Shown here one piece after another: positions 60,214 to 64,000 of a DNA stretch of 64,000 nucleotides. Location: the NCBI GenBank assembly GCA_027214125.1, contig JAPWHF010000010.1, positions 62,001 to 126,000 of the forward strand. Reading direction: 5' to 3'. The notes beneath the pieces are model-generated. The model worked only from the letters and a program-made list of their open reading frames with translations, did not search any database and had not been told where the DNA came from. The position numbers and the translations under genes are program-made. Numbering within the stretch: position 1 is the first letter of the stretch; each line of letters opens with the position of its first letter. The DNA comes from Zoogloeaceae bacterium G21618-S1. Its GTDB lineage: Bacteria > Pseudomonadota > Gammaproteobacteria > Burkholderiales > Rhodocyclaceae.

Positions 60214-60876
60214 ATGTCGAAACCCCGTACCCAAACGCGCCGTCTGGCCCTCGGCCTGACCCTCGCCCTCGGCCTTTCCGCCGCCGCCCACGCCCGCGAC
60301 ATCCAGTCCATGGTGGTGGCCGGTGGCTGCTTCTGGTGTGTCGAATCCGACTTCGAGTCCGTCCCCGGCGTGCTCGAGGCCGTGTCCGGCTACGCCGGTG
60401 GCCATACCGAGAACCCCACCTACAAACAAGTCACCACCGGCACCACCGGCCACTACGAAGCGGTCAAGATCAGCTACGACGCCGACGTGGTCGGCTACCA
60501 GCGCCTCATTCACCTGTTCTTCCGCTCCATCGACCCCACGGACCCCGGCGGCCAGTTCTGCGACCGCGGCAGCAGCTACCGCACTGCCATCTTCGTCGCC
60601 AACGACGAACAGCGCGCCATCGCCCAGGGCGAACTCGATGCCGCCCAGAAAGCACTCGGTAAGCCCATCGTCACCCCCATCCTCGACGCCGCGCTCTTCA
60701 CCGTCGCCGAGGACTACCACCAGGACTACTACAAGGGCGGCGGCTGGACCCTCACCCGCCGCGGCCCGAAGTCACAGGTGGACGCCTACAACTTCTACCG
60801 CCAAAGCTGCGGTCGCGATGCCCGAGTCTCGGACTTGTGGGGCGCCGATGCGCCGTTCGTGCATCACGGGAAGTAG
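60214..60876 (+). CDS. msrA: Exported peptide-methionine (S)-S-oxide reductase
   Basis: 220 residues with a signal peptide (about 1-29, [17 protein letters not shown]) and the MsrA active site GCFWCVE near residue 39. Further family segments are [28 protein letters not shown] and [10 protein letters not shown] further cysteine near the C-terminus (QSCGR) could resolve the disulfide. It repairs oxidised methionine in periplasmic proteins. AAGGAGAACGCCC precedes the ATG. No msrB follows. Confidence 0.93.
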
Positions 60877-60888
60877 GGGTCGTCAGAC

Positions 60889-61020
60889 GTAGCCCGGACG
60901 CCGCGCAGCGGAATTCGTGTTGCATCGGAGGAATACCCACAGCCCCGCAACTCGAGAAATATTGTTTGTCCATGTACGCCGTGCCTGCGCCACGGGCAAA
61001 CCCGGATTCCGCTGCGCTCC
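60889..61020. repeat. Inverted pair of GC-rich intergenic repeats
   Basis: TAGCCCGG with CGCGCAGCGGAAT at 60890-60914 and ACCCGGATTCCGCTGCGCTCC at about 61000-61020 are inverted relatives of one another (core CGCAGCGGAAT / ATTCCGCTGCG). They flank a short unstructured stretch at the left border of the low-GC HEPN/DUF262 pair and could mark its junction. Confidence 0.6.
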
Positions 61021-61050
61021 ATTCGCGCACGCACGCTGTTTGGCAAGGAT

Positions 61051-61587
61051 CTACGTTCCACGGGTATCTTCACCAGAGTCCGTCAGCACTTCGTACTCTT
61101 CGTGCACTGTCGCGTCCAGATGTTCCAGGATTGAACGCCCGAACCTAAAACACTCCACTGTCTCTTCAATGGGAAGCTCGTCCGGTCCGCCATGTGCAAA
61201 ACTATTTCTGGCATTTACAAGCCGGGAAAGTGCGCCTTTCAATGACGGCTTGTCAGATAGCGCGATCTTCTCCTCGAATCTAGCTTGCCACCGCGAGTCA
61301 AAATCAGCCAGCATACTAACAATCATGTCTAGCTTCGGGTTGCAGCTGGAATTTCGAATTTTCTTTTTTACGAAATTTTTTAACTGCGCATGGCTGTCTT
61401 TGTCAACCCTGTCTGCGATTATTTTTTTAAATCCAGACTCGATGGCGCCTGTTGCCCGAATAACCGCATATTTCTTTACGTAAGGTGTCGGTTTTGCCCC
61501 ATCCCCTATTCCCAAAATGAGCGCAACAATAGCATTCAGTTCGGCTTCGCATTCATCAAGCAGCTGCTTGACTTGATTGTTGTTCAT
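61051..61587 (-). CDS. HEPN-domain putative ribonuclease
   Basis: 178 helical residues with ARNSFAHGG near residues 126-134. The Arg127...His132 pair fits the R-x4-H catalytic motif of HEPN RNases. It resembles RiboL-PSP-HEPN/MAE_28990-type nucleases found next to DUF262 genes. ATG 61587 overlaps the DUF262 stop by 4 bases, so production is coupled. Base composition is far lower in GC than the chromosome. Likely the toxic or effector part of a defence or toxin-antitoxin pair; RNA cleavage is inferred. Confidence 0.8.
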   Translation of the reverse strand: MNNNQVKQLLDECEAELNAIVALILGIGDGAKPTPYVKKYAVIRATGAIESGFKKIIADRVDKDSHAQLKNFVKKKIRNSSCNPKLDMIVSMLADFDSRWQARFEEKIALSDKPSLKGALSRLVNARNSFAHGGPDELPIEETVECFRFGRSILEHLDATVHEEYEVLTDSGEDTRGT

Positions 61588-62717
61588 GCCAGGGCCTCTT
61601 TGAAAGCATCGGCCATTTCAAATACTCTGCGTCGAATATTTTCGCTTCGCATTGTTTCTTCTGACAGTATTTTTTGATAATCAGTATCTTGCAGAACATG
61701 CCTTTTTGCCCGAATCAAGGCGTTTGTATTTTTGTTAGCAAGACCGGATTCTATGATAAACCACGAGGCAATCATGACTGCGTCGAAAACCGTTGAGCTA
61801 AGGCGTGGAATGAATTTGTCTGGATTGCTTGGCGATAGATTATGGAAAGCCTCTTCTCCAAAGACATTGCACACAAAGCGCACCGTTTTAGAGAATTTCT
61901 CTCTCAGAATAGAGATTCTTTCTTCATCAATGCTTTTTCCCATGTACTCGTTTAGATATTGTTTTAATGAGACGTTGTATGGGGCCGAGTCAGAATAGAG
62001 GATATAATCATCTGAAAGCGCAAAAAATCTTAGGATGAGCTCCAAGTCCCTCATTCGGTTGTCGCGCACCTCTGATCCCCATATAACTCTCCATTCCTTT
62101 GTGTCATTCAGATCAAAAAGAAGAGTATTTAACAAGCCTTGATAAACGCAGTTTCTTATCTCTTGGGGGAGTAGAGTCTTTCCGCTTGTGTTAATTCTTT
62201 CGAAAATTTGATAGAGGCTGGTATTTCCTGATGTGGGATGTTGTTGCGCGAATATGATTGCATGGATTGTTGTGTTTCTAATTTTTCTTTTCTCATCTTC
62301 CTCTAGCTGGGCAAATGACTTTCCGCGCCATCTTTCGTGTATTTTTTTGCTGTTTGAAAGAGTAAATGAAGTGTTGTCCTCTGAAAAAACGCCCTTTACA
62401 AAATCGCGAACAGTCATTAATCGTTGATAGCCGTCTATTATTAGAAGTTTTTCATCCTCTGTCTTTGCAAGGAAAATACTCGGAACTGGAAGTCCTAACA
62501 ATACTGAGTCAATAAATCTAGAGGCCTCGACGCGATCCCATACATAGTGCCTTTGGAGCTCCGGCTTTACTAATTCATCGTCGTCATATCGCGCAATTAA
62601 TTCTCTAAACGAAAGATCTGCACCCCAAGACGATATTTTAAATAGACCGTCGTCTGTATAGGCGTCCTCCGCTTCCTCTTTGGGCCGGTCGATTACATCG
62701 TTACGTTCTTGTTCCAT
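61584..62717 (-). CDS. DUF262 domain protein (GmrS-like)
   Basis: 377 residues. Features of DUF262 are PELQRHYVWDRVEASRFIDSVLLGLPVPSIFL (about 52-83) and LLIIDGYQRLMTVRDF (about 91-106), the D-G-x-Q-R motif of this ParB-like nucleotide-binding fold. FERINTSGKTLLPQEIRNCVY lies near 185. DUF262 proteins are sensor/nuclease parts of modification-dependent restriction and related systems. The DUF1524 nuclease domain usual in GmrSD is missing; a HEPN gene follows instead. GC-poor, foreign-looking. Starts 47 bases after rtcB. Confidence 0.85.
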   Translation of the reverse strand: MEQERNDVIDRPKEEAEDAYTDDGLFKISSWGADLSFRELIARYDDDELVKPELQRHYVWDRVEASRFIDSVLLGLPVPSIFLAKTEDEKLLIIDGYQRLMTVRDFVKGVFSEDNTSFTLSNSKKIHERWRGKSFAQLEEDEKRKIRNTTIHAIIFAQQHPTSGNTSLYQIFERINTSGKTLLPQEIRNCVYQGLLNTLLFDLNDTKEWRVIWGSEVRDNRMRDLELILRFFALSDDYILYSDSAPYNVSLKQYLNEYMGKSIDEERISILREKFSKTVRFVCNVFGEEAFHNLSPSNPDKFIPRLSSTVFDAVMIASWFIIESGLANKNTNALIRAKRHVLQDTDYQKILSEETMRSENIRRRVFEMADAFKEALA

Positions 62718-62764
62718 GTTTAGTTAATTCCATTAAAGAATGCCTCGTTACTTGGTTTCTGTCC

Positions 62765-64000
62765 TCACCCCTTCACACAAACCACCTGCCGCAACCGATA
62801 CACCACCTCCACCAACCCAGCCTGTGCTTCCATCACGGCGTCGATATCCTTATACGCCATGGGAATTTCGTCAATCACTTCCGCATCCTTTCGGCATTCG
62901 ACGCCGGCCGTCGCGCGCACCTGATCGTCGACGGTGAATTGTTTGCGCGCGGCCGTTCGGCTCATCACGCGCCCTGCGCCGTGGCTGCATGAGCAGAAGC
63001 TCTCCGGGTTGCCCTTGCCGCGCACGATGTAGCTGGCGGCGCCCATGGAGCCGGGGATGATGCCGAGCTGGCCGGCCTGGGCGGAGACGGCGCCTTTGCG
63101 GGTGATGAAAACCTCGCGGCCGAAGTGGGTCTCTTTTTGCACGTAGTTGTGGTGGCAGTTAACCGCCTGCTGGTCGGCGGTGAAGGGTTTTTTGATGACG
63201 TGGCGGGCGGCGTCGATGAGGTGGGCCATCATCAGTTCGCGGTTGGTTCGGGCGAAGTCCTGCGCCCAGTCGACGGCTTCGACATAGTCGTCGAAGTGCT
63301 GGGCGCCTTCGGTGAAGTAGGCCAGATCGCGGTCGGGCAGGTTGGCCAGATGCTGGCGCATGTCGGTCTGGGCCAGTTCGATGTAGTGGCGGCCGATCGC
63401 GTTGCCGACGCCGCGCGAGCCGGAGTGGAGCATGAACCACACGCGGCCGGCTTCATCCAGACAGACCTCGATGAAGTGGTTGCCGGTGCCGAGCGTGCCG
63501 AGGTGGCTGTGGTTGTTGGTCTTTTCCAGGCGGGGCGCCCGCTCGACAAGGCGGCGGAAGCCGGGTTGCAGGCGTTTCCAGGCGGCGTCCACGCTGGCGG
63601 GCGGTTTGCCCCAGCTGCCGTGGTCGCGCTTGCCGCGGGTCATGTCGCGGCCGTGGGGCACGGCTTTTTCGATGGCGCTGCGCAGGCCGTGCAGCTTGTC
63701 GGGCAGGTCGGCGGCGTCGAGCGTGGTGCGCACGGCCATCATGCCGCAGCCGATGTCCACGCCCACGGCGGCGGGGATGATGGCGCCAAGGGTGGGGATC
63801 ACGCTGCCGATGGTCGAGCCCTTGCCCAGGTGCACATCGGGCATCACCGCCAGGTGCTTGTAGATGATGGGCAGGCGGGCGGTGTGGATGAGCTGCGTGC
63901 GGGCGGCGTCTTCGACCGGCACGCCGTGGGTCCACAGCTTGATCGGGGCGGCGCCGGGCAGGGTGAGGGTGTCGTGGTCGGCGGGGTGGGGCATGGCCAT
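62765..64000 (-). CDS. rtcB: RNA-splicing ligase RtcB
   Basis: About 411 residues, close to Escherichia coli RtcB along its whole length. Visible are AVMPDVHLGKG, GVDIGCGM (metal Cys), GTLGTGNHFIE, HSGSRGVGNAIG, NCHHNYVQKE and SFCSCSHGAGRVMSR with the His that takes GMP. The end DIDAVMEAQ...RQVVCVKG is typical. It joins 2',3'-cyclic phosphate and 5'-OH RNA ends, repairing RNAs cut by ribonucleases. The start ATG is at the window edge (64000 or 63994), so a slightly longer N-terminus cannot be excluded. High GC, unlike the two genes downstream. Confidence 0.96.
   Translation of the reverse strand: MAMPHPADHDTLTLPGAAPIKLWTHGVPVEDAARTQLIHTARLPIIYKHLAVMPDVHLGKGSTIGSVIPTLGAIIPAAVGVDIGCGMMAVRTTLDAADLPDKLHGLRSAIEKAVPHGRDMTRGKRDHGSWGKPPASVDAAWKRLQPGFRRLVERAPRLEKTNNHSHLGTLGTGNHFIEVCLDEAGRVWFMLHSGSRGVGNAIGRHYIELAQTDMRQHLANLPDRDLAYFTEGAQHFDDYVEAVDWAQDFARTNRELMMAHLIDAARHVIKKPFTADQQAVNCHHNYVQKETHFGREVFITRKGAVSAQAGQLGIIPGSMGAASYIVRGKGNPESFCSCSHGAGRVMSRTAARKQFTVDDQVRATAGVECRKDAEVIDEIPMAYKDIDAVMEAQAGLVEVVYRLRQVVCVKG

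Follow-up and report, generated by a model that had tools for sequence, protein, structure and literature searches.

Zoogloeaceae bacterium G21618-S1 carries a gene for the RNA ligase RtcB that is followed directly, on the same strand, by genes of the DUF262 and HEPN families. This arrangement raises the question of whether an RNA cutter and an RNA repair enzyme form one unit, or whether rtcB borders a place where foreign genes are exchanged. The locus lies at the end of a 64,000-nucleotide stretch of contig JAPWHF010000010.1, here called the window. A first-pass annotation had proposed that DUF262 senses invasion and activates the HEPN enzyme, while RtcB may reverse the damage. According to the present analysis, the DUF262-HEPN pair is probably an anti-phage cassette of two genes, self-contained and similar in kind to PD-T4-2, that was exchanged into a hotspot between rtcB and the methionine sulfoxide reductase gene msrA. 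RtcB, a host core gene bordering this spot, is not shown to belong to the pair.

A foreign gene pair between rtcB and msrA

The features of the locus, in window coordinates, are the following.

62765-64000, minus strand: rtcB, 411 amino acids, PF01139 with E 1.4e-132; its ATG lies at the final base of the 64-kb window.
62718-62764, minus strand: gap between rtcB and DUF262, 47 bases with a guanine-cytosine (GC) content of 36.2%; the first foreign bases come right after the rtcB stop.
61584-62717, minus strand: DUF262 gene (GmrSD_N; ParB/Srx-like NTPase or sensor), 377 amino acids, PF03235 with E 1e-26.
61584-61587, minus strand: ATGA overlap of the DUF262 and HEPN genes.
61051-61587, minus strand: HEPN gene (RiboL-PSP-type, predicted RNase), 178 amino acids, PF18735 (HEPN_RiboL-PSP) with E 1.3e-11.
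60877-61050, no strand: distal cargo edge, with a 30-nt imperfect inverted repeat resembling repetitive extragenic palindromic (REP) elements, lying between the stop codons of HEPN and msrA.
60214-60876, plus strand: presumed msrA, a convergent core gene on the far side of the spot.

The identity of msrA is assumed from its sequence, and its ATG start is our choice within a reading frame that is open from 60139. Open reading frames and base composition agree with the first-pass description of three co-directional genes with a 47-base gap, an ATGA overlap and a low GC content in the last two. The GC content is 66.8% in rtcB, 41.3% in the DUF262 gene and 47.3% in the HEPN gene, compared with 64.6% for the whole window. 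A sliding scan (1134-nt windows, step 100; mean 64.6, standard deviation 4.9) gives values of 45% or less solely in scan windows starting at 61101-61801, and nowhere else in the 64 kb. The arms of the inverted repeat (60892-60921 and 60999-61028) are 77% complementary. A pattern scan of the 47-base gap, which is weak evidence, revealed no promoter-like or terminator-like matches.

The DUF262 and HEPN proteins

The DUF262 protein matches the PADLOC models NsnA (1.3e-69) and PD-T4-2_A (6e-52). Its DGxQR motif is intact (D95-G-Y-Q98-R99); D95, Q98 and R99 are invariant in seven aligned DUF262 sequences, and D95, G96, Q98 and R99 in a set of nine. With an E-value of 3e-7, the sequence profile finds PDB chain 7p9k_A, which belongs to a DUF262 protein that we take to be BrxU. 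The N-terminal DUF262 domain with DGxQR and the match to 7p9k are shared with the type IV-like restriction systems GmrSD, BrxU and SspE. The pair differs from these systems in its HEPN partner and in the lack of a Pfam match to a DUF1524/HNH domain in either protein.

The HEPN protein contains the active-site motif R127-N128-S-F-A131-H132 (R-x4-H), in which R127, A131 and H132 are invariant in 10/10 aligned HEPN proteins. The histidine is kept in eight members of a second set of nine; the copy without it, from locus L172, has an altered C-terminal part. The match to the PADLOC model PD-T4-2_B is weak (4.2e-4). An AlphaFold2 model of the protein (predicted local distance difference test, pLDDT, 81.9) was submitted to VIA structure comparison, where HEPN or HEPN-MNT toxins take 13 of the 14 top rows. 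The best row, 6m6w_H, has a root mean square deviation of 3.4 over 122 residues. Because unrelated helical entries come next at Z 7.8 and the Foldseek matches are weak (best E 0.19), the predicted fold match on its own proves little. The HepT/MntA (HEPN-MNT) toxin-antitoxin systems provide these nearest solved structures and share the R-x4-H motif; the present pair differs from them in that no MNT nucleotidyltransferase partner of HEPN is detected by Pfam, the partner being DUF262. Since neither a DUF1524 domain nor an MNT partner was found, GmrSD proper and HEPN-MNT are both inapplicable to the pair.

Relatives and mobility of the pair

Relatives of the DUF262 protein were collected by a scan of genome contigs with a two-sequence alignment; a seven-sequence alignment was too divergent to serve as a query, and the scan with the single protein returned no relatives. 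The eight relatives, seven at 57-70% identity and one at 29%, come from records titled Gammaproteobacteria, Azonexus, Desulfuromonadaceae, Geobacter, Fulvivirgaceae, Saccharospirillum, Pseudomaricurvus and Paraburkholderia. In 8/8, DUF262 has a HEPN-type gene directly behind it. Seven of these genes match the HEPN gene of the window by tblastn, among them the altered copy of L172, and the eighth is recognized by its motif only. No rtcB was found near the eight relatives in the available flanks, which span at most 6 kb and far less where a contig ends. The pairs in L171 and L172 follow genes that presumably resemble type I restriction genes.

A class-level sample of 369 genomes contains 16 further, more distant DUF262 places, in 15 genomes besides the present one. 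The next gene has a HEPN motif in nine places, is of the AAA-type ATPase kind in six and is neither in one; the raw script count of HEPN-motif neighbors was ten, of which one, an ATPase with a chance motif, was excluded by us. No rtcB lies beside these 16 genes in the available flanks. The ATPase genes behind DUF262 in L153, L155, L156, L157, L160 and L162, which we assign to the AAA type from their sequences, show that this sensor family also has partners of another type.

Related pairs are also present on mobile elements of Escherichia coli. The pair (61.5% and 48% identity) accounts for two of the four genes annotated on plasmid L164 (NZ_AP027509.1; 3,948 bp), whose gene table may be incomplete; the plasmid also has a VbhA-family antitoxin. 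A 14-kb E. coli plasmid also carries the pair, and in the one place examined of ten chromosomal ones, DUF262-HEPN lies between the CI repressor and the integrase of a prophage, which we read from its genes as P2-like. The pair is thus mobile, moving between plasmids, prophages and chromosomes. Together with the PD-T4-2-like composition, the HEPN and DGxQR motifs and the low GC content, this mobility supports the earlier proposal of an imported pair of sensor and HEPN-RNase with a role in defense.

The occurrence on so small a plasmid is also what a toxin-antitoxin system might produce, in which DUF262 would act against a HEPN toxin as antitoxin or inhibitor, addiction would keep the cassette, and phage defense would be secondary. 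The pair makes up much of the plasmid, where addiction would pay, and the two-gene overlap, the small HEPN protein and the HepT-type toxins among the nearest structures fit the same explanation. We nevertheless regard it as somewhat unlikely. The upstream gene encodes a 377-residue GmrSD_N protein with an intact nucleoside triphosphate (NTP) pocket motif, unlike the small antitoxins of toxin-antitoxin systems. Moreover, phage protection has been demonstrated for PD-T4-2, according to the account of its deletion from ECOR65, which greatly raised plaquing by T4 (Vassallo et al. 2022, PMC9519451).

The pair might also be a passive passenger, that is, a degenerate or silent remnant of a mobile element in a neutral spot. 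The site between convergent core genes disrupts nothing, and a REP-like repeat is left at its edge. By contrast, both reading frames and the motif residues are intact, whereas a fragmentary DUF262 match only (43% of the query, in three pieces) is found in 3/40 plasmid records, among the matches listed. A remnant is quite unlikely.

The rtcB-msrA spot within the genus

Ten genomes of the genus were compared. Eight of them, the present one included, contain this rtcB at 83-100% identity, one has a 58% match and one has none. The orthologues in the seven other genomes (83-99% identity) are in no case followed by DUF262-HEPN, and a DUF262 gene of this type is found in the present genome only (1/10). 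DNA homology to the seven congeners stops no more than 3 bases from the rtcB stop codon. On the far side, homology to G001, G004 and G007 reaches approximately 60878, just past msrA, and then ends. The msrA gene lies next to the rtcB spot in six of the eight genomes with the orthologue, and in the other two (G003 and G006) the contig ends inside the cargo. Different low-GC cargo is located behind rtcB in 7/8 genomes, the present one included. It begins 3-68 bases past the rtcB stop, with start codons as called by script, and is co-directional with rtcB in 7/7 (binomial p 0.016). The congeners carry the following behind rtcB.

G001: an AAA/TOPRIM-like gene plus others.
G002: 692 bases only, GC 63.6%.
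G003: a 306-residue HEPN-motif gene.
G004: two low-GC unknown genes, then rlaP.
G006: an unknown gene of 367 residues.
G007: a DUF262-HNH gene.
G008 (L040:7143-8396): HATPase plus DUF4325 STAS-like gene, matching part of the DrmA model (2e-41); the sole called gene between rtcB and msrA.

As the rtcB stop marks the end of DNA homology, the rtcB-msrA spot is an exchange hotspot between convergent core genes. A chance insertion downstream of rtcB had been considered in the first-pass annotation; an insertion is the part of its reading that is left, though into a spot where cargo recurs and not by pure chance. Defense hotspots flanked by core genes are a known kind on bacterial chromosomes. The present one resembles them in its constant flanking core genes and its variable, low-GC, partly defense-like cargo, and differs in that it starts exactly at the rtcB stop codon. 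No description of the rtcB 3' end as a cargo spot was found in a limited literature search on rtcB, hotspots and defense.

PADLOC matches at 1e-5 were obtained for 4/7 first cargo genes, compared with 2/25 control open reading frames of the same loci (Fisher one-sided p 0.012); the controls come from a simple gene caller, and some may not be real genes. The two matching controls fit enzyme-type models (SspA/DndA and viperin), and their proteins look like housekeeping homologues. The G003 cargo protein retains R207-N208-x3-H212 in 3/3 aligned sequences. It has two weak plasmid relatives and none among 300 genomes of the order, a set without a positive control, and no relative of the G006 cargo protein was found on plasmids.

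The last 18 nt of rtcB (window 62765-62782; L033, L035-L040) are identical in six of the eight genus genomes and one base off in two, and are kept although the sequence past the stop is unrelated. Among 142 windows ranked by synonymous conservation, the last eight codons come 6th in the genus and 112th in the other loci. A recombination site at this tail was considered; no second copy of the tail was found in the nine loci searched.

Two further observations concern individual genomes. In G001, rtcB is interrupted near codon 172, and its two parts (L034:5042-5539 and L033:4135-4851) are approximately 40.6 kb from each other on the same contig, which would fit the integration of a large element within the gene. 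The rlaP gene of G004 (L037:7221-8093) encodes an RlaP nucleotidyltransferase (PF10127, E 1e-95) and is the only rlaP among the ten genus genomes.

The relationship of RtcB to the pair

Membership of RtcB in the module, as envisaged in the first-pass annotation, finds no support in the distribution of the genes. Pairs lying beside unrelated genes and hardly ever beside rtcB had been named there as grounds for refutation, and the relatives show this picture: rtcB is absent from the available flanks of the eight relatives and of the 16 distant DUF262 genes, nine of them HEPN-paired. The related pairs reside on E. coli mini-plasmids and in a prophage, and seven congeners hold other genes behind rtcB.

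A general link between DUF262-HEPN and rtcB was rejected on the basis of these flanks and of counts made from the side of rtcB. We assembled 74 rtcB loci, comprising eight of the genus, six others of the family or order and 60 of the family's closer matches; two complete contig-edge matches (G590 and G610), most partial matches and a more distant rtcB group were left out. Only the present locus among the 74 has a DUF262 or HEPN match (tblastn, 1e-3). A class-level sample of 29 rtcB loci, one of them of the same order, with 1.5 kb visible downstream, has 0/29 matches at 1e-4; fewer than 200 bases were available downstream in 2/29.

The proposal that rtcB, DUF262 and HEPN form one unit, in which HEPN would cut RNA upon infection and RtcB would reverse the damage after the threat or after leaky activation, has some attractive features. 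The genes are tightly packed and co-directional without an obvious terminator, the cargo is co-directional with rtcB in all seven occupied spots of the genus, and HEPN-like motifs recur in other slots, namely in the G003 protein and, below the cut-off, in a protein of L114 (AbiU2-HEPN, E 0.066). The RNA ends left by HEPN enzymes should carry 2',3'-cyclic phosphates. Such ends are joined by RtcB, according to a report that also places RtcR-like proteins near predicted RNA-targeting CoCoNuT systems (PMC11090510), and RtcB is described as countering RNase toxins in pseudomonads (PMC11888443). Repair of HEPN cuts by RtcB is possible in principle.

Against a single unit stand the flanks without rtcB and the sister genomes that place DNA-type defense genes at the same spot (DUF262-HNH in G007, AAA/TOPRIM-like in G001). 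A match to RtcR is found in 0/10 genus genomes at 1e-60 (query, the gene of G604; a set without a positive control), and rlaP in 1/10, that of G004, so that nothing indicates that the pair is expressed under the control of damage. The rtcR, slipin, rlaP and rtcA genes have no match in L002, a locus that reaches 10 kb upstream of rtcB and 3.8 kb beyond it on the downstream side. Taken together, one unit of cutter and repair enzyme appears very improbable.

Proposed mechanism and comparison with known systems

As an anti-phage cassette of the PD-T4-2 kind, the pair would probably function as follows. The DUF262 protein would bind NTP through the DGxQR pocket and respond to a sign of infection, for example modified phage DNA or a phage process, either keeping the HEPN protein quiet or licensing it. 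A HEPN dimer would then cut RNA at composite R-x4-H sites, thereby blocking phage production. The rtcB transcript may continue into the cassette.

Several results weigh against this reading. Because NsnA outscores PD-T4-2_A and the match to PD-T4-2_B is weak, the pair would, judged by its sequence, be a divergent PD-T4-2 member at best. The predicted DUF262 model is poor (pLDDT 66.6) and provides no usable fold match, and the fold match of HEPN is middling, as its Z of 9.8 falls in the range below approximately 13 that may be chance for helical bundles. At the spot itself, 3/7 first cargo genes have neither a Pfam match above the cut-off nor a PADLOC match at 0.01. No direct repeat of the cargo edges was found, nor any second copy of the rtcB tail, with up to 4 mismatches allowed, in the nine loci searched.

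PD-T4-2 is listed under both DUF262 and PF18735 (PMC10952713). The present pair, as known from sequence alone, shares with it the adjacent co-directional DUF262 and PF18735 HEPN genes, and differs in that it is divergent, has a DUF262 protein nearer to the NsnA model and lies behind rtcB on the chromosome of another lineage. An earlier survey (Anantharaman et al. 2013, PMC3710099) lists RiboL-PSP-HEPN as 'operon with ParB' and, in the same table, classes DUF262 as a ParB type. The same HEPN family thus occurs there with a ParB-type gene; the survey gives the arrangement only, and the term rtcB does not occur in it.

These results extend PD-T4-2-like systems from E. coli to another lineage and mark the rtcB 3' end as a likely docking place for defense genes. 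Should RNA-cutting effectors prove to be enriched in the cargo, there would be concrete, testable partners for the old question of which damage bacterial RtcB evolved to repair.

rtcB loci beyond the genus

The comparison was extended to the 74 loci. As the tests were selected with the data already in view and the loci are related to one another, the p values of this section serve as guides only. A GC content at least 8 points under that of the locus is found behind rtcB in 14/73 loci, compared with 18/472 other gene ends (p 1e-5); the 73 loci have at least 600 bases downstream (L133 was dropped), and control genes that are themselves of low GC were excluded. Half of this signal comes from the genus, and outside it the proportion is 7/65 (p 0.022).

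A tblastn search with query proteins, two of which were named by Pfam as RlaP (PF10127) and RTC (PF01137), detected rlaP and/or rtcA behind rtcB, on the same strand, in 21/74 loci. An rtcR gene is present in many of these loci as well, and a slipin-like gene in some; we assume the identity of both in the related genera from their sequences. The repair gene comes immediately behind rtcB in 13/21 loci, and in the remaining 8/21 a stretch of 0.6-1.7 kb is wedged between. The wedged stretches are below the GC content of their locus in 7/8, and those open reading frames of L047 that are wedged in point the opposite way. No insert lies between rlaP and rtcA in the eight loci with both, where the spacing fits rlaP alone (0/8 vs 8/21, p 0.047). 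Seven of the wedged stretches lie outside the genus, and a protein was scanned for six of these.

L099, 6445-6924, between rtcB and rlaP in an operon with rtcR: Barstar-domain gene (PF01337, E 1e-10), GC 49%.
L144, wedged behind rtcB: HEAT-repeat protein, matching PADLOC HEAT-type models only (best 1.1e-5).
L090, L107, L114 and L129, wedged behind rtcB: no Pfam match above the cut-off; the L114 protein is the one with the AbiU2-HEPN match mentioned above.

Since PADLOC at 0.01 returned nothing for five of these six proteins, and HEAT-type models only for L144, the cargo outside the genus is without a demonstrated defense role.

The wedged genes bear on a broader proposal. In this family, the RNA-repair operon might have a dedicated effector slot directly behind rtcB. 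It would hold interchangeable, often RNA-cutting or RNA-toxin-linked cargo (the PD-T4-2-like DUF262-HEPN pair, other HEPN-motif proteins, the Barstar-domain gene), co-expressed with an RNA ligase able to heal its damage and kept tolerable by it. A few of the cargo genes behind rtcB are RNase-linked, on weak evidence; a dedicated slot of this kind seems quite unlikely. The RtcR-controlled rtcB-rtcA operon described by Hughes et al. (2020, PMC7790460) has the RtcB ligase in common with the present locus, and related genera have rtcR, slipin-like, rlaP and/or rtcA genes around orthologous rtcB in part of the loci. The genus differs from the operon of that report in having no rtcR or rtcA near rtcB in the stretches examined and a cargo that varies by genome.

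Outside the family and order, there is no clear support for the view that rtcB generally has a cargo slot behind it. In the class-level sample of 29 loci, in which inserts longer than the visible 1.5 kb would be missed, rtcA or rlaP follows rtcB in nine. Eight of these lie at a distance of 160 bases or less, and the ninth, in L190, is separated from rtcB by approximately 0.76 kb with no drop in GC content.

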